Under the pieces are notes generated by a model that had not been told where the DNA came from, did no database searches, and was given only the letters and a program-made list of their open reading frames with translations. A stretch of 34,220 nt of DNA, from the IMG/VR virus record IMGVR_UViG_3300022921_000057, positions 1 to 34,220 of that record. One strand, written 5' to 3'. The position numbers were made by a program, and so were the translations under genes. This DNA comes from a virus. The stretch's first letter is position 1; the number at the start of each line of letters is the position of its first letter. This document shows, in pieces, positions 2,226 to 34,220 of the stretch.

Positions 2226-5200
2226 TATGAATTTTCACCCTTTAAGAACTTGGCTGGCACCGTTGTGGTATTCTGTAGTGCCTTGCCCTGGGTCACTGAA
2301 CTACCGTCATCCACAGTCGGTACGTCATACCAGGTCTTACCATAACTGTAATCCAGATATGTTGCTATGGAGTAATCATAGGCAACGCTACCTGCCGCAT
2401 GTGATGTCGCACCGGTACCAGCGGTGCCCCTACGTAGCCCGCTCAGTGTATTATTAGTGACATCACGCTCACGATATGTTATACGCTCGCCGTTGATTAT
2501 CACGATACCGAACGTGCCCACAGTTAGGTTAGGTTGGGCCAACTTGCTGGCATCTGTTACATATATGGTATCTGCCGTTGCTGACAATGCCTGTGTTAAT
2601 TTAGTTTGTTCGCTGGTCTTGATCCTATAGACCGCGTTGTTATCTCTCATGTCCTTGAATACAGCAAAGTTCAAGTTATCGGGCACCTCGTTCTCTGTCT
2701 GTAAGGTCACGACAACAACATCACTGTCAGTTATCGACATAGAGATGAACTGTAACTCAGTGCTATCTGTCGAGTTCATCTGCCAGTCCCTGCCAAGATA
2801 CTTGCGTAGCCCGTTCACTGTGACACGTAACTTGTCTGGCTTGGTTATGCTTCTACCTAAGTCAAAGTTACTGAGATCCACTGTGGTTCCAACTGTCTTG
2901 TCAAACGGTTCACCGTCAGCGTCAAAGCCAACGTAGTCAAAGCCGGTTACTATCGTGGTACCTGTTGAGGTTGGTCCCCTATAACATCTGTTGATGATGT
3001 CAAGCTCGGATGTGTTGTTATCTGTGGTCACCATTATACGGGCACCAGTGATAGGGGCAGTATTAAATGTTATCTTATTGAGACCAGGGCTCACAGGTAC
3101 TCCGCTGTATGATATCTTGTATTCTGCCGCTGTCTCGACGAATATCTTGACGTCCGCTCCCGCCGCGGGTGCCGTTGTGAACACCACATATCTCACCGAG
3201 CTGGCATCTGCCGCACTCACTGTGAAGTCCTCATACAATTTTTGTTCGACCCCGTCAACGAAGCAGTGTACGTCACTGTCAACTATCAATGTCTGGAATA
3301 GGTCTTCGGTTGACTTCCAGTTAGTTAGATTGAGATAGAATGGTCCTTCGCTAGATCCATCACCTGTATATTCTATACCTTCTGCAGGAGTCAGTCTCTT
3401 ACCGTCCACTTCCACTACTGCCGTGAATGCGTTGGTACCCTGTATGTCATTGATCAGGGAGAACTCAGTGCGTGTGCCATCACCATACATTATCTGTGAT
3501 GTGGGGTGGCTGGATGAGTGTACTAAGTGCTCGTCGTGTGTGATGTATCCAGGGATAGTTGATATCTCATTTTCATCATATCCGAACACGGCAACACCGA
3601 TGTAATCGCCCACTGCCAACGGATCCCTATTATCATACTTGACTTCTAGGTCAGCAGTTCCGTTGCCATCTATATCCTGCGTACCAAATGTTATGCGTGT
3701 AGTCACATCATCTATCTCGGAGAACGTATAGTTCGTTACGCGATATCCATTGACCTTAATCATCGCTTCATATATCTGTTCGAACGCCACCGGAATGTCT
3801 ATGTACAAGCCGTCAGTCGAGTCATCGATTAACAAGTCTGCCACTGAGTAATTGTCTACCCAGAGTTGATCACCACCACCGATGCCGTATGATTCGACAC
3901 GTAGTATGTCGCCCACTGAGACGCCCGTACCTGTCAGTGTCACTGTCTTGTTGAGCCAGTTTGCTGAATAGTCAACAGTGCCCTCATATGGTGCGAAGTA
4001 TTCAAAGCGTAAGGTCAACCCGGTAGTAACGTTGAACACTCTTACAGCGAAAGGATTCTCTATCAGATCCCAACTTACTGTGGTGGTCTCGGCAGTACCG
4101 TCATATTCCCATGTGTATGATCCAAATGGTTGACCGTGTCCGTCGCCCTCATAATCATAACCTGGACGTGTGAACACCTTCATGTTCAATGTGTCAAAGA
4201 TTGATGCTGGAACAAGTTCTTCCGGTGAATGTGAGCTGTACGTGTCTATGTACTCGCCACCGTCCACATTGATGTCTGTTACCTGTGTACCTAGATATGT
4301 GTCTGTGTAATCACCTGGATTGTATTTCGTATCCAATAATGATTCCGCATAAGTGGGTAATCCTTCCTCACCAAAGTCTAAGTTATCAAACGGATTGAGG
4401 TCGAAGTTACCGATGTCGTAACCTGTGTTCTGATTATATAAAACGCCCTTGACTTGTACGCCCGGATAGTCAGTACCGGATACCAATAGGCCCAAGTCTA
4501 AACCAGTGTTGTTGACTGCTGGAACATATAAGCCCATAGTCCTATTCACACCACTGAGTGTGCTTGGGTCCACTACTACGAAGTCATCAGTGTTAAATGA
4601 TGTACCTGTGACTGCCAACGTGCTGTCATCCTCGTTCCTGGCCTCATATACCTTGTTGTTGTATCTAACCAGTGTACCTGCCTCGTATGCCGTATTGGCT
4701 TCCCAATCCACTATCTCAGACTGATATTCGTAACGGTCATATCGTAATGTCGTCTTGAGATCACGTACGGTGCCCGGAGATGTCACTGCCACTGCTGTCG
4801 CGCCAGTTCCGTTACCACCACTTAAGGTAATGGTTGGTGCTGTGGTGTATCCTACTCCTGGGTTGGTAACCTCTATGGATACCACCTCTCCGGCAGTGTT
4901 GACTTTCGCTACCATGGTCGCTGGAGTAGTCGCAGTTCCGGACACTGTCACTGTTGGTGCTTCGGTGTACCCACTACCGCCCTTGAGAACAGTGACGCTG
5001 TCGATACTTAAGGTGTAGTTCGCTATCCATTGGTTATATGGCCAAGTGCTCCAGATGCTATCAGTTGAAACGAAGTCGCCTGCGACTCCATCACTTGCTA
5101 ACTTAGGACTGATGAATTTATTCGCAGTTTCCTCATAATAGGCAGGTAAATCAAAGTCTGTGGCATCACCGCCAAATAAGTCATCGCCCTTGTACGTCAG

Positions 5201-8200
5201 TGAGAATTCCTTGACCTGTACATGGTAGGGCTTGATCTCATTAATGTATTTCTCTATGAAGTCTTGGTTGTCAACCTGATAGATGTTGAATTGCTTGAGC
5301 TCACGTAGGTTATGTTCAACATCTATCAATGATGTCTTGATCAACCAATCAGATGCCGTGTGTTCGCTCTTGGTATATTCAAATATCAAGTTAATTAGAT
5401 CTATGCGTTCATGGGATCGATCACCAATGAACAGTTCCTCGTTTATGGCCTTGATTATCTGTCTGGTTTCTGTGACTGGCTCCTCATCAAAGTATTGTGC
5501 GTCAAATCCCTCGACATCAAAGCCATTCCTTCCCGCAGTGTAATCATAGACGGATTTGTTAATCTCGATAGTTCCGTCCTCCAAGCCGATCCTATCCCAG
5601 CCCGACGTCGTTTTTACGTAAAGTTCAAATTTGCCCGCACTATTGGTTGTTACCTTAACCACCTCTCCCGTCGCCGTCTTGCTGTCAACTGTCGATAATC
5701 TTGAATATGTCGCAACCTCGTTTACAGGTTTATCTTCTGCCGAATATCCTGTGGCATACCAATCCTTGTATGACCAATATCTAGATGTCTTGTAATTCTG
5801 TACCCTAGTCAGTAACAGAGTCTTGTCGCTCTGTACTTCATATAAAGTCCATAGGTTGCTCTGTGTGCTGTCATTGGCCACTAGATATTTGTAACCTGCT
5901 GACACCAATGCCAGATCTTGATATGTTAGTTCTTCGTATGTCAATAATCGCTTATTGTACGCAGTGGCCGCTGGCTCGTTATCCTTGCTGTTCAGCAAGT
6001 TGAACGATTTGCCCTCACTGATAGGATATAAAGCCAATTGTCTGTTAGCTCTTGTCAGATAGTTCTTGAGGGCGGTATATCTATCCTTGAACATGCTTTG
6101 TCTCGGCCTGAACTCAACACCATAACGATCGGCCTCTGATAGGAAAGCATCAGGTACCTTGTTACCTGCGGTGTCAACACCTGCGAAACTGTCGAGCAGT
6201 TTCCTGTAGAGTTGATCATTTAGGAACTGATCCGGGTCACCCACCTTGATCAGTTCATATTCGACGTGTACGTTGTTGTCAGTCTGTTTCCGGTCATACT
6301 CGATGTGTAAGATGCTGTCCCTGGCGGATAGGTATTGTCCCACATTATACAATGCGCCGGTGTTGGCATCCACTGGAGCCAGATATGCGATGCCACTTGA
6401 CCTTGGGTCTTCGATGTATTGAGCTAGGACTGATGTGCTCAGTGTCTTGCCACTTGGTACCGCAGGAATATTTTTGACCCAATAATAGTAGAGTGTCTCA
6501 ACTATACCACTGTTACCTATCTGTGTCTTAGTGGCATATGAAGTGGTGTTATATACTGTTCCGGTACCTGTGTAATCCGCAGGTGCTTGGGTGCTTTCTA
6601 TCCACTGGTAAACATCCACACTGGATCCTGTGAACAGTTGACCCCATCTCTTGGCCCTGTACTCAGGGTCTCCCTGATAATGATTGATGTATCTGGTATT
6701 TGATGTGTTCCACCAGATCTCGCCGACATGCTCGTCTCTCCAAGTCTGACCATAGTTGTTGACACTGCCCACGTCATACCCTGCTGGGTCAACTGGAGTT
6801 AGATAATCTAAGTTTTGTCTAACGGCCCCTAACAGTTTGCCCTGTAACGGATCAAAGAAATCAACGTCTACCTTGTTTTCTAATGTCGTTCTATCATAGA
6901 TGAATGAGCTGTTCAATAGATCAATATTAACTACCTGACCTTCCTCTCTTATGATCTTCCAAGCGAATTCCTTGTTATCGTTGTGATATATCACTAGTCG
7001 ACCGACGATGCTGGAACCATCCCCGCCCACGTGACCGGGACTCGTTATCAATAATCTTCCGCCCTTGTAATCGACGGCCTTACCGAACTCTGCCAATTCC
7101 ACCACGGTGTTGTCAACTACCTGTTGACCGAACACCAACTTACCTGGATTCGATATGCTGTCGCTGGCAGATGTTAGATAGTCAAACGTGTACACGCTAC
7201 CGCTCTGTATCCTAACGTCTCTGATTCTCGTGCTACCACCGTCCAAGTTCGTAGTCTTGTTGTCAAATGTCGTTGGTAAGTTGCTGGCACCCTTGCTAGT
7301 ACCTACCACCAATGTTAATGCGTCATCGCCCACTGATAGGCTCTCGCCGAAGCGAGCATTCTGTGATGGATATGGTGATGTAATAGTTTGTAGATATTTG
7401 AATATATCGAGACCCAAATCAGTCAATGCATCATTGTTGTTGCCCGCAGGATACACGTATAATTTGTTAGCGACCGCACCGGCATTGACATTAGTTAGAG
7501 ATATCGTCAGTTTGCCATTGGAGTTCACTGCCTTGACATTTGGTATCGTTGCGTTGTTGATGTCCGTGACCACTTGGTCTAAAGTTGTTCCCGTGAATGT
7601 TACCACAACATTGTTGATCCTGATCTTCTCACCCACTGTCACGGTCGGATTTGACACAGTTCCAGTTATGGTTCCGTATAGTCTTGATTGGTTCACAGAA
7701 CGTTGTACGCTACCCGCACTTGGTAACACGTTGCCATCATCTGGTGCACTCACATATACTGAACAGTTCGTTGGGCATATGGTCACTTTGTGTCCGAACT
7801 GTGCCGCTTGATATGCATTGGTCATCTCAATGGTATCTACCAATAAGAAGTTGTTGGTCTCTATCTCAACGAAGTCACCCAATCCAGGTGCCGTCGCTAA
7901 TGTGACAGTGCTACCCGATACCGTATATGTTCCACCGATGTATCTTGCCGAATCCTGTAATATGGTTCCGTTAACGGATACCACTGCCCTTCCAACGGGG
8001 CTCTTGTCTGACACGTAGGTCTTGTCAGTGTCATCTGTGACCACTTGTCTCTCGACATCTCTGTCATAGATATAGGCTTTATTTGCTGTCCTCGCACCAA
8101 CAACCAACTGCCTGCCATCTGTTGTTGTTGCTAAACTATAACCAAATTCTTCACCCTTGGTGCCCACGATGGCTGTGACATATTCGTAGTAGTCGCTCGA

Positions 8201-11200
8201 CCTAACCTGTATCACTGCACCATCTGCTGGAGCAGTCGCGAATGCGAACACGTTTGATGAGTCATGTGCGTAGTCATAATCGATGTTTAATCTCTGTAAC
8301 ACACCGTCGACTAATACAGTGAGTGAGAACTCACCGTCCGCAGTATATAATCCTGTGATGTCAAACTCTGTCGTGGACCCATCACCTTCCAAGGTCAGTG
8401 TTTCTCTCCTGGTCACGGCAATGGTATCATCAGCGGTCAGTCCCGTGTTAAGTGTCAATATGCCTGTGCTTGACACGCTGGATGTGAATGTGTAATCAGT
8501 AACACCTAGCTCGACGTTGTTGACCACGACAGCCAATTGATCTGGCTCATCTGCTATGATGTAGTCACTTAGGTCATATTGTGCGTTGCTGTCGTCGTTG
8601 CCCACTCCGGTAAATCTCTGTAACTGCCTGTCGATGCGTTGGAACACGTAGACAGAATCCTTGCCAGGTGCTGACACGTATGCCCATCTGCCGTCATCTG
8701 ACATGGCAACCGCATGGCCGAACTCAGCCTCATCGTTGGCGTCACTCGGATTCACTAACAACTGATGTTCAGATATTAGGTTTGAGTTCAGTTGCTTGAG
8801 TACGTAGGCATAGCCCTCGCCGTTGTTGGATGTTGACGCACCTGCTATCGACCAGGTCTCATTGGCACAGGCAATATCGTTACCATAGTTGTCCAGTGCC
8901 GTGGTTCCCGTACCAGTGAGTATGCTGTTCTGTGCCATGACATCATTTGCTGTCTTGACGTATGTGAACAGGCCGCCCTTGCTACTGTTGTAGCCCGGAG
9001 CACCTACAAATGCTGTTAGACTTTCTGCGTTTTGTGCTACTGATGTACCAAAATCAATATTAACTAAGTTTTGGTCTGTGAGGCCATTGAGGAAGTTTCT
9101 TGCTGGTTCTAAACTACTTTCCCGTTTGAAGGGATCTACCTTCTCGAGCACTTGCCATCTGTCACTGCCGTTGTTGTCTATCCATACTCTGTTACCTGGA
9201 TCGATCTCATTGGCAAACGGTAAATTCAATACGTCACTGCCCTGGGCTACCCTAACTGAATTTAATTTGTATGTAAGTCCTTCCAACGTTATGGAAGTGA
9301 TGTCATCGGGTAATGATAACTGTATTGATATTTTGTTTAAGCTCTGAACCTCACTTACCCTAAATGCGGAATCAACGATTATCTGGTCATCAACCCCCCA
9401 TTTGACCAGAATGATGTCGTCCTTGGCCAATCCGTGATTACCTGCGAATAACAATGTGCTAGAACCATCCAGGTTGTCCGTCACCTTAGATAGAGTTGAC
9501 AGCACAAGGCTGGATCTGTACACGTTCCAATCCCAGGCATTGTCCCTGGCCACCCATATGGTCGTGCCCTCACCTATCTGAGGCATGTACGGAACTAGAT
9601 CCTCTAGGTCAAGTATGTCAAATAATTGTATGTCGATGTCATCCACGTTGACGTAACCCGCCGTTGGCAAATTAAGTTCCGATGCCACTGAGTAACGCTG
9701 TGGTAATATAGGAGTAGATGCTATCTTGTAGCTCTGTTTATATAGATTATTTAGGCTAATGCTCTGATCAACTGTGCCATCTGATCCAGTGTTAGTGATT
9801 TTAATTGTGGATGGGTTGGCTCCCAACAGGCTCTCGTCCATTCGGAGCTCGACGTATGCCCTGTTGCCTTCCGCACCATATTGACCCTGCTTGACAGCCC
9901 AGTTCTCATAGATATCGTAATCGGCTATCTCTTTTGCTAATCTTGATGTCTTGAATAGGTCAGCCGCACGCTTGGTGCCCTTGTTGCCGATGAAACTGCG
10001 GAACACGTTAACCTGACTGATGTCATCGAGGCCCATGCTTGATAGGTAATCTCTCTCATTGAACCCGATGAGGTTGAAGCCTAATCTGTCACCGTCCTTC
10101 TCTAGGTTGGCGACATTGGTGTCATAGTAATCTCTGAGTTGATCTGTCTTGAGGCTAAGGTTAGGTAGCAGTCCCTTCTTGATCGTGTCATATTCCGTCT
10201 CTAACCAATCACTGTAATCAAACTTCTCTTTTGGATACACTGACTTGGCCGCGGCGTAGTAACCGTTCTTGAAGAGCACTATGTCGCCCTTGCTGTATTC
10301 CTTGTTGTTGGCCCATTCCTCAACATTGTCGATGTTGAACATGAAGCCTTGTGCGTCAACCTGACCGTTCCAATCAGCAGTCTTGTATCCTGACACCCTC
10401 AATCTCTGTTGTCTTGACCCGGTAGTCGGATCATATATCAGATCATTGAAGATGGACTTGTTGTCAAAGACCAGCATATGCTCATAGCTCGTGAACTCGG
10501 CCTTGAGGTACGCTATGGCATCCTCATCCAGGCTCTCCACTTCAAATGTGTTGTCTAACCTATTGAAGTTTAATTTGTTGTTCGGTATGGCTTTGAGATT
10601 CTGATTGAGAACGAAGTCATCTGCCGTTCCGCCGGTCACTGGAGCAACGATGCTCTGTGCTCTCCTAATCTTAAGCCTGTTGGCATTTGGATTCAGATTG
10701 ATTATGCTACCATCTGCCCAGCCCTGTTGGCTCCAATGTAGGAATTCTCTAATCATCTGGTTCCAATCAAGGAGATAGTTGTTATCCTGATCCTCAAAGA
10801 CGTAACCCTTGCCCTCTAGGTATCTTCCATAACTTATCAGGAAGTCTGCCACGGCACTGGTGCTGGTGAACACATAACCGTATGGCACACGTGTGGTCCT
10901 TGTGTCAAAGTCCTTGCTGACCCTGACAGAACGGCGTCCTACCTTGATCATCTGATAGTTCCCATTCACTATGCTGTTGTATATCGTAAAGTACGGATCT
11001 AGGAAACTGTTGCCGCTCACGGCCCATCCATCTGCCGTTTGTTGTATTATAATAGATGAGTATTCTGCTGTGTCAAATACCTCGTTGCTATATAGGAAAA
11101 CGTCAAAGCTCTCATCGGGCAATAGCAGGCTGGTGTTGTTTGAGTTCGGCGAGCTCTTTTCTGTGTAGATCTTGAGATATTCCTTGTCGCTGAATGAAGC

Positions 11201-14200
11201 CAATCTGTAGGTCAACTGTATGTTGATGTTCTCTAACAGATCCTTGATGTTTGTTATCGTTGACACGCCCTGTTTCTTGCTGTAATCAACACACCAATTG
11301 ATGTATGAGTGCTTGGCCGTGCCATCTCCGTATAGTACGATATCCTCTGCCTTGATCCTCGACCTTCCATCATATAGGTATTGGTCTAACTCACTGTCAT
11401 ACTTGTATAGGTCTCTGTCAGCGTTGAGTGCGAAGAACTCCGCAGGTTTGCTCAGTGCCAACATTCTGATGACTGCGAATGGAAAACTGCTTGATCTCCT
11501 CCAGGCCGTCTCCACCGGACCGCTATCTCCTGATACCCAGGATTTTTCAAAACTGAGACTGTCATAGTTGCCAACTATGCTGTCAAACGCCGATTTGAGA
11601 TTACCCTCGTCGTCCACTGGAATGATCTTGCTGAGTCCTGGACGTTTCCATTTGTCCACGACGGTGTATGCATCAACGCCGTCCCATACCCGACCGTTCT
11701 CTAGGTCGTCCCACAGCACCTCGTTGCCTGACGTGTATGGTGCGGGACCGTACTTGACATTCCACCATACGGGTTTCTCCGTGAACCCAATCATCTCCCA
11801 TGGAGTTATATGCGGAATGTCAGTGTCGTAATATTTTAAGTAGGCTCCACGCTGGTTACCAGGCAATAGCTCTCCGTCTACCTTATCCTGCGACTGTGTA
11901 TAGTTCCAAGTCTTCTGATTGTTTTCATCATAGTCCTGCTTCTTGTAATCCAATCTGTTCCATGCCACCCAGGATAGGAAATCTCTGTTCAGTAGTTCTG
12001 TGATCTCCGCACTCAAATAGTCTGTTGTCCTGAACTTGCCTGGTGCCACGTCCTGTAGGCACAAGGGGATGTCACCAATCCACTTGATGTTGTTGTATAT
12101 GCGTTTTTCGAATTCTAATAGTATGTCATCTCTGTTGTCGCCAAAGGCTATCGTCTTGCTACCATCATGACCCACTATGACATCCTGTGCCTCTACGTAA
12201 CTGTCATCTGTTATCTTCTCGGGCTTAAACTTGTTGTAGAGTCCCAACTTAGTCGGTGTTGACGGTATGAAACTTCCAGCGGTACTGGTATATTCCCTGA
12301 TCTTGACAACATCACCAACGTTCAGCGTCGCTGATATGGTCATTCTCGGAGCATCTGATGCTACCGTGTAATCATACCCCTTGATCAACTGTACATCATT
12401 CACATAGACAGTCAACCCTAGGTAATTTGCCTTGGTAAAATCATATGTCGTTGATAGATCAAATATGTCATCATCGATCGCTGTTATGGTGTACTTGGTT
12501 TCTGAGAATACCTGTCCACAAGGGATCATGTCTGACCAATAGAATGATTCACTGTTCTGCCTGCCATTGTTTACGAAAGACAATGCATTGTCTAATTGTT
12601 CCGCTATCGTGCCTTGGAAGTCATTCTTAGCCAGTGCGTCTAATAGTTTACCTTTATATTTCTCATATTCACGTGAGGAATAATCCAACGAGTTGAAGAA
12701 ATTGATGTTGCTGTCTCTGACAAAAGTGGACGCTAGATGTAAAGGTGAGCTTTGCTGTGCTATCTTACTTCCATATGGTACTATATCACCTAAGTCTCTC
12801 GAGTTGTTACTACCAAAAATCTTTCCTGTCAGGTCTGTTAGATTCTGTGCTAGATCAATGTAGTGATTTCGAACGGTGCCCAATGTGACATCTGTGAACG
12901 TTCCATTGAGAGCATTGTTCTCTAAGTTCGTTGGTATCTCATAGTATCCGAATTGGCTGGTCTTATCACTCTGTATCTTAACGGTTACGTTGGAGTCCGT
13001 GGCCGGCTCGTAGGCACTGCCAAACGTTATGGTGGTCTGTGTGGCTGACACCGTGTATGAGTATCTGGACGTTTCCTGGAACACATTGTCGACGTACACG
13101 ACCACAGGTATGTCTTCTGATAACTTAGCCGGTATGTCCGCTACTAGCGGAACACCAGAGTAGGTAAAGGTCAGAATCTGATATTGCGTTGACTTGTTGA
13201 CGTGCTTCTTCCATCCTATTTCCTTAGTGAAGGTCGTCCTATCCGAGTAATTGCGTACGAAACCGGTGCTGATGTTCACAGTCGTTGACACGGAATCAGC
13301 AGTGTATATGAAGGTGTCCTTCTCTAGGTTGTTATCAAATACTATGTCACCCACGTTATTGATCGTTTGATACTTCAGCCTGATGCCGAGCTCCGTGTCG
13401 GCGGAACCTGAACCTGGTGCGTATGAGAACAATTTAGTTCCCTTGAAGTTGGTTGATGGATAGTATGTACCATCTCCCAGGCTACGTCCTTTCTTGTCAA
13501 ATACGTCAAACAACGGAGCCTGATTTATCGCTGTCTTCTGTTGCGTTTCCTGCCATGCCGTGCCATCATATCTCCAGGACTTGCCCTGACCCTTGGCTCC
13601 ACTCAATTGATAGACCACGTCATCCGTGGCAACGTCGCTGACCTTTGTGAGGTTGATGATCCTGGCTGTTGAGTTGACACCGTCCTCATCAATCAGTTCT
13701 ACCTGATAGATCTTGTTGCGTACCTCAGGGTCTGTGTCTTTCGTGAAGATGATCTTGCTACCTGTTACAAGTGTGTAACCATCAATGCTGTATCCAGTCT
13801 TGCCGTTGACGTTTGACAGTGCGTCCGTCTCTCTGTCATCAACAATGTTGATATCGCCCAGTGAGTTTGTTCCATGATCAAAAAGTCTCAATCCGGCCTT
13901 AAATTCAAGAATAGGTCGCTTGGCTCTCTTGTCCTGATCTAACAGAGCAGTTGTCTTGTTGTATTCGGCTGTCTTATTGATGACATCTACGTGTGTCCAT
14001 CTGTTGCTTCGACTCCAAGCATTCCTATCCGGACTTGCCTTGTTCACGGTAAAATAGTCTAACTCCTGTGGTGCGTTCAGGCTCTCGTCAAAGGGAGTTG
14101 AATCGTATCCGTACACGTCAAAGGGCTGTGTCTCTGACTTGGTATATGTCTCTGGTGTCTTATAATCACTCGTGGGCAATAGTTTGATGGATGTACCCAC

Positions 14201-15628
14201 TCCCTCGATGTAGTACTCGCCGTCCTGATACGTGCTAGGTTCTGTATTGCCACGGAACTTTATCTTCATCCCGTTTGTGAATACGACACCATTGGGAGAA
14301 GTATAAGTCTTCTTGCCTAGGATGTCATCAGTAACGAATAATAAATCCTTAGTGGTTTCGTCTACAAGTTTGATCACGCCGAACTTGGTGCTGTCATTGG
14401 CATCCTGATAGTATAGGGTATCCTTGACGGCTGTCAGTGGAGGGATCAGTTCCCAGAAACCTTCTGCGGTCCTGTAATAAGACCTCGATGCTGACACTGT
14501 TCCGTATTCTACCTCTATCTTATTGAGATTGGCCGTGTCCTTGACTCTCCTCAACTTCATGTACGGACGTGTGCTACTGGTGTCAGTGAAGAACTGTATC
14601 TGCCATACCGAGTACCTCTCGTCCTGACTGGTTATCTCTGTTTCCACGTCAAATCCGGAGGTGTCGTAATTGACCCCATCGGTGTCAAATCTGTCTGAGT
14701 ATCTCCAACCACTGTTTGCCGGATCGGATTGTGTGTTCCTGTTTAAGAAGATTATTGTTCTTCCATCCAAGTCCCTGATCTCGTCTATGCCATCTGTGGC
14801 GTCGAGGAATACATCAACGAATTGATTGTTGATCTCATCAAATCTCAAGGTCGTTGCTAGATCGACTGTGCCTAGATCTGTCAGTCCGTAATAAAAACTC
14901 TGTGCGTCAGCCAAGGGTACGTTGAACTGTATGGTACCGTTGTCGTCACCGTTATTGGAAACACCGAATACCTCACGGCTGGAGATGTTCTCTTGTCCAG
15001 GAACTACCCCGCTGGTTCCTGGATTGCTCTGGATCCAGAAGGGATTACCTGTTTGTGCGACATTAAATGTATAATTGCCGCCCCTTGCCAAGGTCAGTGT
15101 TGGATTATCGCCGGATGTCCCGCTCAGTGTGTAACCGTCACCGGTTCTAGTTACATCAAAGTCATCAGTGACTGCTACTTCCGTTGCCTGTACGTCGACA
15201 GGGTCAGGTCCTGAACTCAACCAATAGTATTGTCCAAAGTTGATGAACTTGTCATAATCCACGAGTGGATCCCATGTGTAGTAATCGCTTGAGAATAACC
15301 TATCGTGCCTGTCAGTGATAGCATCGTTGACATTCAGAGCATCTATCAATCCCGGGTATGTCAACAGGTCCTTAGTTTTCTGTGTTCCGGCTGTCTTGTA
15401 CACTACCGTGGGCTCTAACTGATAGTCTGTCCTTTCCTTGTCGGGTTCAATGACGTACTTGTCATTTTGATCAACACCGATTCCGTAACGCTTTCCTATG
15501 TAGCCCTGTACCCTCCTGAGTTTCGAGGGTTGGATCATTTGATCCAAGGTAGCCGCGAGGAACTTCTTGTTGGTCTCGGTTCTAAATATCTCAGGTAGTA
15601 GATCTACCGTTCTAATTCTAGTTGCCAT
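2225..15628 (-). CDS. Giant baseplate/tail structural protein (4467 aa)
   Basis: The N-terminus (MATRIRTVDLLPEIF, then TNKKFLAATLDQM and KYVIEPDKERTDYQLEP) matches a very large virion protein that I recognise from T4-like cyanophages, where it follows gp6. The order gp25-gp6-giant suggests a wedge or fibre component taking the place of some of T4 gp7-gp10; that is inference. Internal features: at least nine beta modules of the type VxVNGxxL...DYT...ITF...APxxGDxVxI (for example about 840-890, 1070-1115, 2365-2480, 2547-2593, 3950-4000, 4120-4170, 4260-4310); seven FG-GAP-like repeats at about 2190-2885; a GSGYTEAPTVTVSG/GVGYTTAPTITLSG repeat pair at about 3550-3625; and a C-terminal NGERITYRERD...GLRRGTAGTGATSHAAGS module. 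The ATG shares one base with the gp6 stop (TAATG). No enzyme motif was recognised. The frame is uninterrupted over 13.4 kb. Confidence 0.8.
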   Translation of the reverse strand: MATRIRTVDLLPEIFRTETNKKFLAATLDQMIQPSKLRRVQGYIGKRYGIGVDQNDKYVIEPDKERTDYQLEPTVVYKTAGTQKTKDLLTYPGLIDALNVNDAITDRHDRLFSSDYYTWDPLVDYDKFINFGQYYWLSSGPDPVDVQATEVAVTDDFDVTRTGDGYTLSGTSGDNPTLTLARGGNYTFNVAQTGNPFWIQSNPGTSGVVPGQENISSREVFGVSNNGDDNGTIQFNVPLADAQSFYYGLTDLGTVDLATTLRFDEINNQFVDVFLDATDGIDEIRDLDGRTIIFLNRNTQSDPANSGWRYSDRFDTDGVNYDTSGFDVETEITSQDERYSVWQIQFFTDTSSTRPYMKLRRVKDTANLNKIEVEYGTVSASRSYYRTAEGFWELIPPLTAVKDTLYYQDANDSTKFGVIKLVDETTKDLLFVTDDILGKKTYTSPNGVVFTNGMKIKFRGNTEPSTYQDGEYYIEGVGTSIKLLPTSDYKTPETYTKSETQPFDVYGYDSTPFDESLNAPQELDYFTVNKASPDRNAWSRSNRWTHVDVINKTAEYNKTTALLDQDKRAKRPILEFKAGLRLFDHGTNSLGDINIVDDRETDALSNVNGKTGYSIDGYTLVTGSKIIFTKDTDPEVRNKIYQVELIDEDGVNSTARIINLTKVSDVATDDVVYQLSGAKGQGKSWRYDGTAWQETQQKTAINQAPLFDVFDKKGRSLGDGTYYPSTNFKGTKLFSYAPGSGSADTELGIRLKYQTINNVGDIVFDNNLEKDTFIYTADSVSTTVNISTGFVRNYSDRTTFTKEIGWKKHVNKSTQYQILTFTYSGVPLVADIPAKLSEDIPVVVYVDNVFQETSRYSYTVSATQTTITFGSAYEPATDSNVTVKIQSDKTSQFGYYEIPTNLENNALNGTFTDVTLGTVRNHYIDLAQNLTDLTGKIFGSNNSRDLGDIVPYGSKIAQQSSPLHLASTFVRDSNINFFNSLDYSSREYEKYKGKLLDALAKNDFQGTIAEQLDNALSFVNNGRQNSESFYWSDMIPCGQVFSETKYTITAIDDDIFDLSTTYDFTKANYLGLTVYVNDVQLIKGYDYTVASDAPRMTISATLNVGDVVKIREYTSTAGSFIPSTPTKLGLYNKFKPEKITDDSYVEAQDVIVGHDGSKTIAFGDNRDDILLEFEKRIYNNIKWIGDIPLCLQDVAPGKFRTTDYLSAEITELLNRDFLSWVAWNRLDYKKQDYDENNQKTWNYTQSQDKVDGELLPGNQRGAYLKYYDTDIPHITPWEMIGFTEKPVWWNVKYGPAPYTSGNEVLWDDLENGRVWDGVDAYTVVDKWKRPGLSKIIPVDDEGNLKSAFDSIVGNYDSLSFEKSWVSGDSGPVETAWRRSSSFPFAVIRMLALSKPAEFFALNADRDLYKYDSELDQYLYDGRSRIKAEDIVLYGDGTAKHSYINWCVDYSKKQGVSTITNIKDLLENINIQLTYRLASFSDKEYLKIYTEKSSPNSNNTSLLLPDESFDVFLYSNEVFDTAEYSSIIIQQTADGWAVSGNSFLDPYFTIYNSIVNGNYQMIKVGRRSVRVSKDFDTRTTRVPYGYVFTSTSAVADFLISYGRYLEGKGYVFEDQDNNYLLDWNQMIREFLHWSQQGWADGSIINLNPNANRLKIRRAQSIVAPVTGGTADDFVLNQNLKAIPNNKLNFNRLDNTFEVESLDEDAIAYLKAEFTSYEHMLVFDNKSIFNDLIYDPTTGSRQQRLRVSGYKTADWNGQVDAQGFMFNIDNVEEWANNKEYSKGDIVLFKNGYYAAAKSVYPKEKFDYSDWLETEYDTIKKGLLPNLSLKTDQLRDYYDTNVANLEKDGDRLGFNLIGFNERDYLSSMGLDDISQVNVFRSFIGNKGTKRAADLFKTSRLAKEIADYDIYENWAVKQGQYGAEGNRAYVELRMDESLLGANPSTIKITNTGSDGTVDQSISLNNLYKQSYKIASTPILPQRYSVASELNLPTAGYVNVDDIDIQLFDILDLEDLVPYMPQIGEGTTIWVARDNAWDWNVYRSSLVLSTLSKVTDNLDGSSTLLFAGNHGLAKDDIILVKWGVDDQIIVDSAFRVSEVQSLNKISIQLSLPDDITSITLEGLTYKLNSVRVAQGSDVLNLPFANEIDPGNRVWIDNNGSDRWQVLEKVDPFKRESSLEPARNFLNGLTDQNLVNIDFGTSVAQNAESLTAFVGAPGYNSSKGGLFTYVKTANDVMAQNSILTGTGTTALDNYGNDIACANETWSIAGASTSNNGEGYAYVLKQLNSNLISEHQLLVNPSDANDEAEFGHAVAMSDDGRWAYVSAPGKDSVYVFQRIDRQLQRFTGVGNDDSNAQYDLSDYIIADEPDQLAVVVNNVELGVTDYTFTSSVSSTGILTLNTGLTADDTIAVTRRETLTLEGDGSTTEFDITGLYTADGEFSLTVLVDGVLQRLNIDYDYAHDSSNVFAFATAPADGAVIQVRSSDYYEYVTAIVGTKGEEFGYSLATTTDGRQLVVGARTANKAYIYDRDVERQVVTDDTDKTYVSDKSPVGRAVVSVNGTILQDSARYIGGTYTVSGSTVTLATAPGLGDFVEIETNNFLLVDTIEMTNAYQAAQFGHKVTICPTNCSVYVSAPDDGNVLPSAGSVQRSVNQSRLYGTITGTVSNPTVTVGEKIRINNVVVTFTGTTLDQVVTDINNATIPNVKAVNSNGKLTISLTNVNAGAVANKLYVYPAGNNNDALTDLGLDIFKYLQTITSPYPSQNARFGESLSVGDDALTLVVGTSKGASNLPTTFDNKTTNLDGGSTRIRDVRIQSGSVYTFDYLTSASDSISNPGKLVFGQQVVDNTVVELAEFGKAVDYKGGRLLITSPGHVGGDGSSIVGRLVIYHNDNKEFAWKIIREEGQVVNIDLLNSSFIYDRTTLENKVDVDFFDPLQGKLLGAVRQNLDYLTPVDPAGYDVGSVNNYGQTWRDEHVGEIWWNTSNTRYINHYQGDPEYRAKRWGQLFTGSSVDVYQWIESTQAPADYTGTGTVYNTTSYATKTQIGNSGIVETLYYYWVKNIPAVPSGKTLSTSVLAQYIEDPRSSGIAYLAPVDANTGALYNVGQYLSARDSILHIEYDRKQTDNNVHVEYELIKVGDPDQFLNDQLYRKLLDSFAGVDTAGNKVPDAFLSEADRYGVEFRPRQSMFKDRYTALKNYLTRANRQLALYPISEGKSFNLLNSKDNEPAATAYNKRLLTYEELTYQDLALVSAGYKYLVANDSTQSNLWTLYEVQSDKTLLLTRVQNYKTSRYWSYKDWYATGYSAEDKPVNEVATYSRLSTVDSKTATGEVVKVTTNSAGKFELYVKTTSGWDRIGLEDGTIEINKSVYDYTAGRNGFDVEGFDAQYFDEEPVTETRQIIKAINEELFIGDRSHERIDLINLIFEYTKSEHTASDWLIKTSLIDVEHNLRELKQFNIYQVDNQDFIEKYINEIKPYHVQVKEFSLTYKGDDLFGGDATDFDLPAYYEETANKFISPKLASDGVAGDFVSTDSIWSTWPYNQWIANYTLSIDSVTVLKGGSGYTEAPTVTVSGTATTPATMVAKVNTAGEVVSIEVTNPGVGYTTAPTITLSGGNGTGATAVAVTSPGTVRDLKTTLRYDRYEYQSEIVDWEANTAYEAGTLVRYNNKVYEARNEDDSTLAVTGTSFNTDDFVVVDPSTLSGVNRTMGLYVPAVNNTGLDLGLLVSGTDYPGVQVKGVLYNQNTGYDIGNFDLNPFDNLDFGEEGLPTYAESLLDTKYNPGDYTDTYLGTQVTDINVDGGEYIDTYSSHSPEELVPASIFDTLNMKVFTRPGYDYEGDGHGQPFGSYTWEYDGTAETTTVSWDLIENPFAVRVFNVTTGLTLRFEYFAPYEGTVDYSANWLNKTVTLTGTGVSVGDILRVESYGIGGGDQLWVDNYSVADLLIDDSTDGLYIDIPVAFEQIYEAMIKVNGYRVTNYTFSEIDDVTTRITFGTQDIDGNGTADLEVKYDNRDPLAVGDYIGVAVFGYDENEISTIPGYITHDEHLVHSSSHPTSQIMYGDGTRTEFSLINDIQGTNAFTAVVEVDGKRLTPAEGIEYTGDGSSEGPFYLNLTNWKSTEDLFQTLIVDSDVHCFVDGVEQKLYEDFTVSAADASSVRYVVFTTAPAAGADVKIFVETAAEYKISYSGVPVSPGLNKITFNTAPITGARIMVTTDNNTSELDIINRCYRGPTSTGTTIVTGFDYVGFDADGEPFDKTVGTTVDLSNFDLGRSITKPDKLRVTVNGLRKYLGRDWQMNSTDSTELQFISMSITDSDVVVVTLQTENEVPDNLNFAVFKDMRDNNAVYRIKTSEQTKLTQALSATADTIYVTDASKLAQPNLTVGTFGIVIINGERITYRERDVTNNTLSGLRRGTAGTGATSHAAGSVAYDYSIATYLDYSYGKTWYDVPTVDDGSSVTQGKALQNTTTVPAKFLKGENS
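6980..9065 (-). other. Seven FG-GAP-like repeats inside the giant protein, predicted beta-propeller
   Basis: Seven units start with (F/Y)G and end with a V(S/G)AP/VGA-type turn: FGTSVAQNAESLTAFVGAPG (near residue 2193), YGNDIACANETWSIAGAS (2248), FGHAVAMSDDGRWAYVSAPG (2303), FGYSLATTTDGRQLVVGA (2494), FGHKVTICPTNCSVYVSAP (2610), FGESLSVGDDALTLVVG (2759) and FGKAVDYKGGRLLITSPG (2847). Most are followed by a strand such as YVFQR or YIYDR. Seven copies fit an integrin-alpha-type seven-bladed propeller. Uneven spacing reflects beta modules inserted between blades 3-4, 4-5 and 5-6. The calcium-loop DxDxDG typical of integrins is not seen. Confidence 0.6.
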
Positions 15629-30437: not shown

Positions 30438-30878
30438 TTGTCATACGAAAACCCTTGGATGCTTCAAGAAAAAGTCTTCGACTCAGAGGACATCGGTGAC
30501 AACTACGGTTTCGTCTACAGAATAACAAACACTACAAACGGACACGACTACATTGGCAAGAAGTTCTTTTGGCGCAAGGTCACACGTCCACCACTCAAAG
30601 GTAAGAAAAATAAAAGAAGATCATTGGCAGAATCTGATTGGAAGGAATACTGGGGCTCCAGTGACCGACTACAGGCAGATATAGAAAAACTAGGCAAAGA
30701 CAAATTCTCAAGACAAATAATCCATTTGTGCAAATCCAAAGGCTCAACAAACTATTTGGAGTGCTACTATCAAATGAAAGAGAACGTGCTGTTACGTGAT
30801 GACAATTACAACGGCATTATTAACATTCGACTTGGTGTAGGCTCTGTTAAAGACGTATTACTAGAAGATTTAAAATAA
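30438..30878 (+). CDS. GIY-YIG-like small nuclease, phage type
   Basis: A 146-residue protein. GFVYRITN (24-31) and DYIGKKFF (37-44) correspond to the GIY and YIG halves of the catalytic domain. KRRSLAESDWKEYWGSS (about 59-75), KFSRQIIHLCKSKG and NYLECYYQMKENVLLRDD (105-122) match a nuclease-like family I recognise from T4-like marine phages, with E108 as the candidate metal-binding Glu. The catalytic Arg after YIG could be R46 or R50. Family members are often described as homing-type or Seg-like, but no DNA-binding tail beyond the domain is present. The start is TTG with AAGGA six bases upstream. It lies downstream of gp46 and directly before the structured non-coding stretch. Confidence 0.75.
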   Translation: MSYENPWMLQEKVFDSEDIGDNYGFVYRITNTTNGHDYIGKKFFWRKVTRPPLKGKKNKRRSLAESDWKEYWGSSDRLQADIEKLGKDKFSRQIIHLCKSKGSTNYLECYYQMKENVLLRDDNYNGIINIRLGVGSVKDVLLEDLK

Positions 30879-31272
30879 CAGCCACTGATGCGGAGTGTAC
30901 TCCGTGTCCTATGAGGTGATCGCAGGAGACTGCGTGGAACTCGCGAGAATAGACTCGCGAACGGGACGGCATTGTAACATCATAAGTTTAAAAACCAAAT
31001 GATGTGGGCTCTGTGAAAAAGAGACAACCCACGTGACTGTATAGTTTCGCTGACTGGGGATTATACAGCACCCGCCATATGAATCTAGAGTAGGGAGTAC
31101 AGGATGACCGCTTCCGTTCTTAGGAAATCTCTATCAGTCAGTACGATGCCGAACACGGATAATGTGTAGGTTGTGATTTGCCTGCTTAAGGTGAATTACG
31201 ACTTGAATCAGGATAATGCGAAGCAACAGTTATTTCGAGCGTTAGCGAAGAAATAGATGTCTATAGACATCT
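30878..31272 (+). ncRNA. Candidate large structured RNA, about 390 nt, plus strand
   Basis: This gene-free stretch has at least eight helices. Domain 1 (30878-30975): ACAGCC pairs with GGC..TGT and encloses a 9-bp hairpin (30887-30908, loop UGUA), a CGCAG hairpin with GAGA tetraloop (30921-30934) and TCGCGA hairpin (30941-30960). Next come ACATCAT/ATGATGT (30977-31005), GTGGGCTCT/AGAG..CCCAC (31004-31032) and CTGTATA/TATACAG (31037-31068). The loop of the last can pair with CAGTCAG (31135-31141) in a pseudoknot. A 17-bp helix (31167-31183 with 31189-31205) and terminal hairpins at 31231-31255 and 31255-31272 follow. Many pairs are G-U and work only in plus-strand RNA. I do not recognise a known RNA family. 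No own promoter was found, so it may be processed from the gp46 operon. Confidence 0.6.
31255..31272. terminator. Perfect palindrome at the junction of convergent transcripts
   Basis: AGATGTC-TATA-GACATCT is a perfect 7-bp stem that overlaps the stop codon of the leftward sulfotransferase gene and closes the structured RNA region. No strong U-tract follows on either strand, so a terminator or RNA 3'-end role is only likely from its place between converging genes. Confidence 0.35.
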
Positions 31273-31961
31273 CAGAATGCGTATCCAAATTGTTCTATCT
31301 CAAACTTACTTCCCTCGTTAACGACATCGATGCACTTTTGGTCAACATAGTAATCTTGATAACGTTCAGGCCTCACACGCCATTCAGTCTTGTGTTTGGG
31401 AAATAATGACCAATCCATCTCGACCTGTAACTGCCTTGCCAGTTCTTCCAAGTGATCATGTAGATGCTCATACTTTATCACATAGTCTATCTTGAAATCA
31501 CCATCAACACAAAATCTATCTCGCTCGTCCGTCATTAGGTAATGGTTGTTCTTGTTGCGTATGAACTTTGTGAACAGGTGTTGTATCTGTTTGAAGTCCG
31601 CGACCCTGAGCTCTTCCAGCCTGTGCTTGTTGTAGTTCCAGAACATGCTGACCATCTTGTCCCATGGATTGCGTGTGTTGGCTATGAAGTTAAAGCGATC
31701 AAAGGCCCAGCCACACTCGTGAGTCAACCTATCTCGTATCTCATGTAAGGGCATGTGGTTGTAAAACGTGTCTCCGACCCTGACCCCGTGATACCTACCT
31801 CCCACTATGCCGTATTCCGTGACAGTCATGAACCTCGAGTGCTCACCGATGTCAGTCACCGTCGGTGGTAGGCAGTAGCGTTCCAACCATGCCTCGGTAC
31901 TGGTGCCCGCGGTCTTCATGGTCTTGACGTAGATGAACTGTTTGCTGTAACTCACTAACAT
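31272..31961 (-). CDS. Sulfotransferase-family protein
   Basis: Starting from ATG at 31959-31961 the protein has 229 residues. KQFIYVKTMKTAGTSTEAWL near the N-terminus fits the 5'-phosphosulfate-binding loop of PAPS-dependent sulfotransferases, and FIANTRNPWDKMVSMFWNY (about 90-110) fits the 3'-phosphate-binding element with its Arg-Asn-Pro. A His in YNHMPLHEI lies where the family has its catalytic region, but that assignment is uncertain. In the Sulfotransfer_2 family, sulfate is moved from PAPS to sugars or other acceptors; a role in modifying host or phage surface glycans is inference. An upstream in-frame TTG (31988) lies inside a terminator U-tract, so the ATG is preferred. No good ribosome-binding site is visible; an imperfect late box TGTAAATA is about eight bases upstream. 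Confidence 0.7.
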   Translation of the reverse strand: MLVSYSKQFIYVKTMKTAGTSTEAWLERYCLPPTVTDIGEHSRFMTVTEYGIVGGRYHGVRVGDTFYNHMPLHEIRDRLTHECGWAFDRFNFIANTRNPWDKMVSMFWNYNKHRLEELRVADFKQIQHLFTKFIRNKNNHYLMTDERDRFCVDGDFKIDYVIKYEHLHDHLEELARQLQVEMDWSLFPKHKTEWRVRPERYQDYYVDQKCIDVVNEGSKFEIEQFGYAF

Positions 31962-31986
31962 GCTAGTATTTACAGAAGTTCCGGCC

Positions 31987-32024
31987 AAAAAAAAGGACCA
32001 TTGGTCTTCAAATGATCCTTTTTA
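31987..32024 (-). terminator. Rho-independent terminator after the two-helix membrane protein gene
   Basis: On the minus strand AAAAAGGA..CATT pairs with AATG..TCCTTTTT in a 12-bp stem with one mismatch, followed by a run of eight T in all. It lies about 30 bases after the stop of the small membrane protein gene and before the sulfotransferase gene. Confidence 0.75.
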
Positions 32025-32052: not shown

Positions 32053-32286
32053 CTATTTCTTTTCCCAGATTGTATATAAAACCCATACTGCGATCAAACC
32101 AGCTAAGCCTTCGTTGCCCAGTGATTTAACGATGCCAGTTACAGAACCAATAACGTCTGTGCCTGGAAGAAATGGAACTGTGTTACCGCCAAATAAAATT
32201 TCTAAAGCGATGAACATTGCCATCAAAGTCACTGCTAAATGAGCGATTTCGTTAGCCCACTTCTTTACGTTTTCTAATACTTTCAT
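32053..32286 (-). CDS. Small two-helix membrane protein, holin-like
   Basis: A 77-residue protein. Two hydrophobic segments, about 15-34 (IAHLAVTLMAMFIALEILFG) and about 60-74 (GLAGLIAVWVLYTIW), are joined by a Gly/Pro/Val loop (NTVPFLPGTDVIGSVTGIVK). The N-terminus is Lys-rich and the C-terminus ends EKK. Size, two membrane segments and charged ends fit a class II holin, and similar small proteins occur in marine T4-like phages, but no endolysin gene is nearby in the window, so holin function is an inference. An excellent AGGAGGT ribosome-binding site lies seven bases upstream. The gene has its own promoter-like sequence, a structured leader of about 170 bases and a terminator, so it is expressed as a separate strong unit. 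Confidence 0.6.
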   Translation of the reverse strand: MKVLENVKKWANEIAHLAVTLMAMFIALEILFGGNTVPFLPGTDVIGSVTGIVKSLGNEGLAGLIAVWVLYTIWEKK

Positions 32287-32491: not shown

Positions 32492-32680
32492 CTAAAAGAA
32501 GGGCATCTTGCTCTTTTTGGTGGTTTCCAGATTATCCTTGATTATTTGGTTGATCATCTCTCGCTCGTCAGATCCCAGGTTAGCGGCCTCCTCATATGTG
32601 AGTCCCCCACGCATGTACCATGTCATCTTGAGCAAATCCTGCTTTATGGCCTTGGTGTTCTTCTCCATGGAGTCCACCAA
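32492..32680 (-). CDS. Frameshift extension of the gp26-like protein (tail-chaperone C-terminal part)
   Basis: This frame encodes EEIEQLVDSMEKNTKAIKQD, then LLKMTWYMRGGLTYEEAANL and ends ETTKKSKMPFF. A similar short module (WYMRGG...ETTKKSGMPFF type) is one I recognise from marine T4-like phages. The frame has no stop back to 32722 and beyond, where the upstream gp26-like gene carries a TTTTTTC slippery heptamer. A -1 shift would add 76 residues to 277 residues of the gp26-like protein, giving 353. Independent initiation at TTG (32680) or ATG (32666-32668, with GGTGG upstream) would give 62 or 58 residues. I favour the frameshift, because the sequence between slip site and ATG reads as plausible protein. 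The parallel is lambda G/GT; direct evidence is lacking. Confidence 0.65.
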   Translation of the reverse strand: MVDSMEKNTKAIKQDLLKMTWYMRGGLTYEEAANLGSDEREMINQIIKDNLETTKKSKMPFF

Positions 32681-32715
32681 CTGCTCGATCTCTTCAGGAG
32701 TCGAGGTCAGGAGCC

Positions 32716-33552
32716 TTATGCGAAAAAATTCGCTTGATCCAGTGTGAAGGGAGCATCAAACTCCTTCTCACATTCCTTGCACTTGATGTGTAAGGGTTTC
32801 ATCTCAGTGCCCTCCCTCATGCCCATCATGTGGTCTCTGATCTTGTCAAATGTGTCTGAGCTGGTGTTTTCTAGGAACTCCCTGATGTGTTCCTGGTTCT
32901 CCACCAAGGTCTCTGCGGTCTTGATGGCCGCGATGCTGTTGACCATGCTGTCAGTGGTCAGTTTAGTGATTGACTCTAACGCAAGACCCATGGCGTTGAT
33001 GCGTTCCTCTTCGGTGATGTCACTGTTCTCTCCTGAGCTGACCTGTAACAGTCTCTGATTCTCGAACTGCTTCTTCGAAGACTCGTTGACTTCCCTGTAG
33101 GTCAGTGGACGGAAATAGATCTCCATGTCCGCCATACTGAGATGCTTGTTGTAATCCGGGGTCTTGATCTGATCCACGACAGTGCGTAGATCCATGACAT
33201 ATTCCTGTTCCTCCTCGCAGTGTGGGCACCTGACTGACATTTCCAGCTCATGTCCATAACTGGCTATCCTTATGGATGTTAGTAATAGGTCTAGGTCCGT
33301 GCTGGGTATGGCCCAGGGGTCCTTGATGTTTGGCACGCAACTATTGAATAGTCGCACATTTGATGTGCCGTTGAACAGTGCGTCCGGTGTACGCATGACT
33401 ATCTCGTCCATGGCTGTCATTGGGTACACGGGTATCTCTCTGTTTGGTGGCATTTCTAGGGCACCCGGTGGATATCCCTTGCCGTCTGATGGCAATTTGA
33501 TGTAGATCGCAGGTTGCCTAAAGTATTTCTGTAATGGGTTATTTTCCGCCAT
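32716..33552 (-). CDS. 26: Baseplate hub/assembly protein gp26-like
   Basis: A 278-residue protein from ATG 33550-33552 (MAENNPLQKYFRQPAIYIKL). NPLQKYFRxPxIxIxLPS, then PVYPMTAMDEIVMRTPDALF, NGTSNVRLFNSCVPNIKDPW and MADMEIYFRPLTYREVNE are conserved in the T4 baseplate protein family that contains gp26. Two Cys pairs, CPHC (about residue 119) and CKEC (about 263), could form a zinc site. T4 gp26 (208 residues) is a hub assembly protein. An upstream GTG (33582) lies at the predicted late transcription start and is rejected. The gene ends AAT TTT TTC GCA TAA, where TTTTTTC is a canonical -1 slippery site leading into the next frame. A perfect TATAAATA late box lies 34 bases upstream. Confidence 0.75.
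   Translation of the reverse strand: MAENNPLQKYFRQPAIYIKLPSDGKGYPPGALEMPPNREIPVYPMTAMDEIVMRTPDALFNGTSNVRLFNSCVPNIKDPWAIPSTDLDLLLTSIRIASYGHELEMSVRCPHCEEEQEYVMDLRTVVDQIKTPDYNKHLSMADMEIYFRPLTYREVNESSKKQFENQRLLQVSSGENSDITEEERINAMGLALESITKLTTDSMVNSIAAIKTAETLVENQEHIREFLENTSSDTFDKIRDHMMGMREGTEMKPLHIKCKECEKEFDAPFTLDQANFFA
32722..32728 (-). other. Putative -1 ribosomal frameshift heptamer
   Basis: T TTT TTC in the gp26-like reading frame (P-site TTT, A-site TTC), two codons before the TAA stop, has the X XXY YYZ pattern used in programmed -1 frameshifting. It is embedded in the palindrome GCGAATTTTTTCGC. About 16 bases downstream, CTCGA and TCGAG can form a stem with a 12-base loop that might stimulate slippage. 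Confidence 0.6.
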
Positions 33553-33619: not shown

Positions 33620-34220
33620 ATGGACGAACAAGAAGTACAACGGATATTACAGACCATAATGGACCAGCAGAGTCGTGGCATCCCCTTGACTGCCGAGCAA
33701 TTGAAGCAGTTAAAGGAAGCCACTAGTGAGCTAGCCAATTTCAAGAAGGGATTGGTATCTGCGGCCAAGGATGTGACCAAGGGTTTCACTGAGACCTCAA
33801 AAGCACTAGCCGGTGGAAATAGGGACCTATCAACGATGTCCGGTGCCCTTAGGGGATTCAGTGATGCCGTAGACAAGGCAGTGGCACCGTTGATGGTGTC
33901 CATGCCGGTCTTCGGAGCCGCCCTGGGCGGTGCCAATCAGGCACTGAAAGCGGCAACGGCCTCACTGGGATTGATGCAGACACGTCTCGACGGGTATCGA
34001 GAGATTGGAAGGATAGGCGCACAAGGTGCCCAGGGACTGAGCACCCTACAACAGCAATTCGTTAGATCAAGATTATCAGTGACTAGATTCACTGACATAA
34101 TGAGCAAAAACTCAGTGGCATTGGCCAGGATGGGCGGCTCAACGGCACTGGGTGCTGAAAAACTGACGGATGTTTTCGAAGGCCTGACCACTGATCGAGG
34201 CCTGATGAGATTGGGCATGA
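33620..34220 (+). CDS. Tail structural protein, candidate tape measure, 5' part only
   Basis: The open frame starts at ATG 33620-33622 and runs off the right window edge after 200 codons. It begins MDEQEVQRILQTIMDQQSRG and IPLTAEQLKQLKEATSELAN, a helical, Gln/Lys/Glu-rich region, followed by a Gly/Ala/Leu-rich stretch (about 95-125: APLMVSMPVFGAALGGANQA). The Gly/Ala-rich hydrophobic stretch after a helical N-terminus is typical of tape measure proteins, and the neighbour is a gene pair that looks like tail chaperones with a frameshift. T4 gp29 is the tape measure of this phage type. I do not recognise a diagnostic motif, so another virion protein is possible. No strong ribosome-binding site is seen (AGGTATCTAATTA before the ATG). 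A late promoter octamer precedes it. Confidence 0.5.
   Translation, partial: MDEQEVQRILQTIMDQQSRGIPLTAEQLKQLKEATSELANFKKGLVSAAKDVTKGFTETSKALAGGNRDLSTMSGALRGFSDAVDKAVAPLMVSMPVFGAALGGANQALKAATASLGLMQTRLDGYREIGRIGAQGAQGLSTLQQQFVRSRLSVTRFTDIMSKNSVALARMGGSTALGAEKLTDVFEGLTTDRGLMRLGM

Follow-up and report, generated by a model that had tools for sequence, protein, structure and literature searches.

Phages lambda (G/GT) and P2 (E/E') produce short and long tail assembly proteins from a single gene, in which a -1 slip occurs close to the 3' end. The slippery heptamer of lambda is G GGA AAG. In phage T4, gp26 and gp51, described in reviews as hub assembly chaperones (PMC3004832), are encoded by two separate and divergently transcribed genes with no frameshift. 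In relatives of T4, the gp51 of cyanophages and marine vibriophages was described as lacking approximately the first 200 residues, that of cyanophages appeared shortened to roughly 20% of its length, and gp51 was missing in Aeh1 (Sullivan et al. 2010, PMC3037559). The tail assembly chaperones of T4-like phages (Vladimirov et al. 2022) are given as a short gene and a longer fusion gene in a passage of the PRFect paper (PMC10274946). A passage on the Pakpunavirus Adele cites the same work for poly-T slippery signals in the TAC-N genes of T4-like phages (PMC12846349).

The gp26-like locus and its coding capacity

The window, i.e. the whole stretch of DNA analysed here, is an IMG/VR virus record of 34,220 bases. 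Its gene content is T4-like and includes SbcC/SbcD-type recombination endonuclease subunits, a late sigma factor, and baseplate wedge and hub proteins. The parts of the frameshift locus were located as follows:

32716..33552, minus strand: gp26-like gene encoding the short form (TAC-N) of 278 aa, from the ATG at 33552 to the stop codon TAA at 32716-32718
32722..32728, minus strand: slippery heptamer T TTT TTC (U UUU UUC) in the phase of a -1 slip, with G as the next base
32492..32722, minus strand: extension in the -1 frame, 76 codons and a TAG (32492-32494), the C-terminal part of a predicted 353-aa long form (TAC-NC)
32666..32668, minus strand: internal ATG at extension codon 19, the earliest in the small frame; its Shine-Dalgarno score is fair, and its position varies among relatives
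32640..32721, minus strand: region 3' of the slip site with a candidate stem-loop GGCU...GGCC and an inner CUCGA/UCGAG, which did not reach significance in the window
33620..34219, plus strand: divergent neighbour gene, incomplete at the window end; weak matches point to a virion-structural product of tape-measure-like composition

The gp26-like reading frame ended in GCG AAT TTT TTC GCA TAA on the minus strand. A heptamer of the X XXY YYZ type was thus present in phase ahead of the 0-frame stop, which lay two to three codons past it. After the slip, the -1 frame read CGC ATA AGG CTC CTG... and stayed open to its TAG, and the predicted size of the long form was 277 + 76 = 353 aa. Read from the genes alone, a short and a long form with a common N-part are encoded at the locus. 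The two strands of the window together held one TTTTTTC, compared to 3.4 copies expected in shuffles, and this sole copy was the in-phase heptamer near the gp26-like stop. A preliminary description had placed T TTT TTC at the gp26-like end in the right phase for a -1 slip, with an extension of 76 residues and a product of 353 aa; its phase, frame, coordinates, and counts were all confirmed when the window was read again.

The gp26-like protein matched the T4_baseplate family PF12322 (E 1e-17, 65 bits, against a curated cut-off of 24.5) and the baseplate hub family phrog_150 (E 3e-21). An AlphaFold2 model of the short form (pLDDT 86) was compared to BFVD and matched T4-like baseplate hub assembly proteins, with a best E of 1.5e-23 and a TM of 0.89. 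In the PDB, no significant match was obtained by sequence or by fold, including any solved tail assembly chaperone fold such as HK97 gp13 or the lambda gpG N-domain, a result that excludes nothing. The model of the extension (pLDDT 82) displayed helices at residues 11-40 and 53-73. The extension gave no usable match in Pfam, PHROGs, or NCBIfam, and that of the window did not match phrog_634.

The arrangement was compared to the described systems. The window resembles lambda and P2 in encoding both forms in one gene with a predicted -1 slip near the 3' end, and its heptamer differs from that of lambda; the likeness is known here from the gene layout, and a role in tail assembly would be shared by analogy. 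The chaperone gene of Adele and the Andersonviridae (PMC12846349) also belongs to a myovirus and has a T-rich slip site and a -1 extension that is stop-free across genomes. However, it comes from another phage family, its motif is GTTTTT, and it is located just ahead of the tape measure gene. In S-RIM4, P-SSM3, HTVC008M, and KVP40, gp26 and a small 'gp51' ORF are joined by xxT TTT TTY in the -1 phase, with the order of parts seen in the window, although these cyanophage, pelagiphage, and vibriophage loci have low sequence identity to it. The proposed mechanism is of a known kind and not categorically new.

Conservation of the slip site and the -1 frame

Homologues were collected at 187 loci on 183 distinct contigs, made up of 182 loci and five further isolates chosen for spread (KVP40, HTVC008M, Cr30, Yut3, and phiAS5); four contigs were counted twice across two locus sets. 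They were picked by similarity to the gp26 protein and not by their 3' ends, and a few jumbo-phage loci were reached via the extension. The sets held 80 marine cyanophage-like loci, 80 loci from the lineage of the window itself (one on a 357-kb contig), and jumbo-phage homologues from Agrobacterium, Sinorhizobium, enterobacteria, Pseudomonas, Xanthomonas, Stenotrophomonas, Vibrio, and Salicola hosts.

All 182 loci displayed an in-phase T TTT TTY and an extension in the -1 frame, as did the further isolates (5/5). Except in XacN1 and RAS14, the heptamer of the 182 loci was T TTT TTC. A frame-blind profile search placed the extension in the -1 frame in 78 of 78 loci of the window's lineage. Homopolymers are common places for indels, and an assembly or sequencing indel could have split one gene in two. 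This explanation was refuted by the occurrence of the same -1 arrangement in about 180 independent contigs and isolate genomes, and its probability is negligible.

The preliminary description had proposed a programmed -1 frameshift of the G/GT type and had pointed to marine T4-like homologues as the place to look for the heptamer and the -1 phase. Both recurred without exception among recognisable relatives, and this conservation supports the interpretation. Small frames in the 0 or +1 frame, loci without a slippery site, or conserved independent starts with a ribosome-binding site were not seen, except in one or two very distant relatives. In the Microcystis phage Mel-JY01 (L035 3190-3470), a distant misfit, the gp26-like end was AAC TTT TTT TGG CCT AAG TAA, and the extension likely lies in the +1/-2 frame and not in the -1 frame. 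A switch of slip direction is possible in this phage. The metagenomic jumbo phage L046, a very distant relative, was without T TTT TTY.

The slip site was further analyzed at the nucleotide level. Across 59 non-redundant loci, the residue ahead of the two Phe codons was S, A, N, H, Y, D, or R, and its codon always ended in T; serine at this place was encoded exclusively by AGT or TCT. Given the codon use of each locus, the joint probability of this T together with TTT as the first Phe codon was about 10^-34 if the loci were independent, which they are not. The entropy of third bases within an alignment is a better control. In 39 non-redundant marine loci, third-base entropy was zero at the three heptamer codons, the sole such positions among 20 codons. 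Of the remaining 17 codons, nearly all had 0.9-2 bits and one had 0.48, indicating that synonymous sites elsewhere are well mixed. With third bases invariant at the heptamer alone, the site is kept at the nucleotide level beyond what the amino acids need. In an alignment of 28 loci of the window's lineage (mean identity 72%), the first eight columns, TTTTTTCG, were all invariant.

Among the homologues, runs of T6 to T8 (TTTTTTC, TTTTTTT) were found at the site. Such runs would suit transcriptional slippage, in which a mixed mRNA pool made on the T run gives rise to the long form. However, in almost all loci the run is broken by a C exactly at the Z of X XXY YYZ, as expected for tandem tRNA re-pairing but not for a longer homopolymer, and six Ts are short for polymerase slippage. 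We consider transcriptional slippage highly improbable.

Coding selection was observed directly after the slip. In close marine pairs, the 18 codons that follow it had a pN/pS of 0.21 in the -1 frame, compared to 1.37 and 3.33 in the other frames, and a value of 0.09 was obtained between the window sequence (L002) and L003. Distant pairs, such as Atu_ph07 and Phosso, were saturated and uninformative for this ratio. These 18 codons precede the first ATG in most loci. Purifying selection on the stretch ahead of any ATG was confined to the -1 frame, and the stretch reads as protein, as the preliminary description had proposed for the region between the slip and the first ATG.

This result bears on the possibility that the small frame represents an independent gene. 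Its translation would begin internally, at ATG 32668 or at a TTG/GTG upstream of it, by coupling to the gp26-like end, and the poly-T would be incidental. Public annotations give the small frame as a separate ORF with varying starts, and the stop and the candidate starts are close together, as in coupled genes. In the window, the ATG at extension codon 19 had a fair Shine-Dalgarno score of -4.9, and TTG and GTG were present at codons 15 and 16. A good Shine-Dalgarno start within 30 codons was found in 11 of 97 loci, the window among them; an additional product from an internal start may therefore be made there. As the source of the extension in general, however, a separate start conflicts with several observations. 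The first ATG varies in position from codon 1 to 36. No ATG is present in the first 18 extension codons in 56/97 loci, and neither ATG, GTG, nor TTG in 33/97; ten of the 97 loci have none of the three in the first 30 codons. The block ahead of the ATG is conserved protein sequence under purifying selection, and the same two parts are fused in frame in T4 gp51. Furthermore, a separate start leaves both the invariant heptamer and the invariant phase unexplained. This alternative is improbable, and a programmed -1 frameshift at TTTTTTC very probably makes the long form.

Downstream RNA structure was analyzed in the 80 nt located 3' of the heptamer. The mean z-score was -1.17, compared to -0.58 in control windows. 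Strong stems beginning 6-13 nt past the heptamer were found in Atu_ph07 (z -7.3), Phosso (-4.3), and XacN1 (-4.6), and most loci were without them. The stem of Atu_ph07 (L013 4001-4080) is very strong and nested, with GGCUCUUUGU...ACAAAGAGCC around AGAACCGG...CCGGUUCU (z ~ -7), and begins about 6 nt past the heptamer. No consensus fold was found by RNAalifold in 43 sequences, Rfam gave no match, and no candidate for a common downstream stem passed the controls. A 7-bp stem AGGAUCU/AGAUCCU in the window's wider lineage was rejected, as it paired in 90.3% of cells compared to 88.9% in shuffles; its pairing may follow simply from conserved R-I-L and E-I-L codons. The claim of frameshifting rests on the heptamer, and no structure is required.

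Relation to T4 gp26 and gp51

T4 gp26 (208 aa) ends in ...KEFFELL, and gp51 (249 aa) continues from that point as ...DVFKLLVNPDEI... The N-part of gp51 matched T4 gp26 with an E of 1.9e-24. In profile comparisons, the cyanophage-type fused protein aligned with T4 gp51 along the whole length, junction included (E 5.7e-17), and the cyanophage extension alone matched the gp51 C-terminus (E 3.5e-8) and did not match gp26. The fused profile of the jumbo and window type aligned with gp51 through the junction over 246 columns (E 4.2e-6). For the window-type extension alone, the match of the jumbo-type profile to the gp51 C-terminus was weak (P 0.0021, probability 13%). In PHROGs, the gp51 C-terminus and the cyanophage small ORF fall in phrog_634, and the gp51 N-part and gp26 fall in phrog_150. 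As judged from these alignments, the long form is present in T4 as gp51, where it is encoded in frame. T4 and the window share the short family (PF12322, phrog_150) and a long form made of a gp26-like N-part and a C-terminal part, whereas the window has one gene with a slip site for both.

A maximum-likelihood tree of the gp26-like parts was constructed. T4-type gp26 and gp51 formed one set (99/96), with gp51 as one group (100/99), and this set adjoined the frameshifting vibriophage KVP40 and Aeromonas phage phiAS5, both of which have the slip site. All 33 frameshifting rows fell on one side of a branch. On this tree, a single switch from slip to two genes suffices. Because the root was placed by midpoint only, the direction of change was taken from the width of the frameshifting set, and the two-gene state of T4 looks derived.

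These results together make it likely that the U UUU UUY slip in gp26 is ancestral and nearly universal in T4-related phages, including cyanophages, pelagiphages, KVP40, phiAS5, and several jumbo groups with that of the window, and that it was lost once, in T4 and its close kin, by keeping gene 26 for the short form and gene 51 for the long form in frame. If this is true, an annotation gap accounts for the gp51 of marine phages being 'truncated' or 'missing'; the cyanophage protein would appear truncated because the slip supplies the missing residues from gp26. In phiAS5, the -1 extension lies at L213 2180-2400, and the 'missing' gp51 of Aeh1 may likewise be a poorly annotated -1 extension.

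The preliminary description had taken gp26 and gp51 as separate genes and their fusion as a new view of T4-like phages. The separation holds for T4 itself. The novelty does not, since T4-like frameshift chaperones were named in 2022, reportedly with poly-T signals according to the passages that cite that work. The window's lineage is a new member of this known kind, and the present analysis measured how broadly the arrangement is conserved and placed a single switch within the T4 branch. Hundreds of marine and jumbo phage genomes have these two proteins under separate annotations or unannotated, and the frameshift unites them. It also connects T4 gp26 and gp51, hub chaperones that have long been unclear, with the lambda-type system of short and long chaperones. 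Therefore, their role becomes testable by one silent change of the slip site where one gene makes both forms.

Proposed chaperone role and gene neighbourhood

We regard the locus with high confidence as a tail assembly chaperone pair like lambda G/GT, predicted to be made from a single gene by programmed -1 frameshifting. The sequences show the site, its phase, its conservation, the coding selection, and the relation to T4 gp26 and gp51, whereas the occurrence and rate of slippage and the binding partners of each form are inferred. The majority of ribosomes would terminate at the TAA and release the gp26-like short form. At U UUU UUC, where re-pairing with UUU is open to both tRNA-Phe, a minority would slip by -1 and read the 76 extra codons to yield the long form with its helical C-terminal domain. 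T4 and its near relatives would have swapped this slip for two genes, gp26 for the short form and gp51 for the long form in frame.

The chaperone role is drawn from the T4 and lambda literature, and both forms probably act as tape measure or hub chaperones. If the pair works like lambda G/GT and P2 E/E', molecules of the short form would cover the tape measure or hub while the tail is assembled, and the long form would tether this covering to tail tube or hub proteins with its C-terminal domain. Both forms would depart before the tail is completed.

The gene neighbourhood was compared among isolates. HTVC008M has the order tube, gp26, extension (the small 'gp51' ORF), small ORF, and tape measure, and Cr30 has gp26, extension ('gp51' ORF), small ORF, and tape measure. 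This order is usual for tail assembly chaperones. In HTVC008M, Cr30, and KVP40, the locus has the tube and/or tape measure genes as same-strand neighbours, whereas the structural and weakly tape-measure-like neighbour in the window is divergent. A relative of this neighbour is complete in L004 (632 aa), where it lies between gp26 and the portal gene.

Several other genes of the window were noted. Just 3' of the frameshift gene, a 77-aa hydrophobic ORF (MKVLENVKKWANEIAHLAVTLMAMFIALEILFGG..., 32053-32286, minus strand) encodes a small membrane protein; it is preceded by a perfect AGGAGGT and had no match in Pfam. A 238-aa protein (31272-31988, minus strand) has a sulfotransferase-like look (YVKTMKTAGTSTEAWLERYC) with no match in Pfam, and a relative of it occupies the equivalent place in L004 (4548-5240). 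A single ORF of 4,467 codons (2225-15628, minus strand) encodes a giant adhesin or fibre protein, with matches to the FG-GAP repeat, the CBM_5_12 carbohydrate-binding module, and the T7 tail-fibre N-domain. A SegE-like GIY-YIG endonuclease gene (30438-30878, plus strand; PF19835, E 4.4e-41) adjoins the SbcC-like gene.
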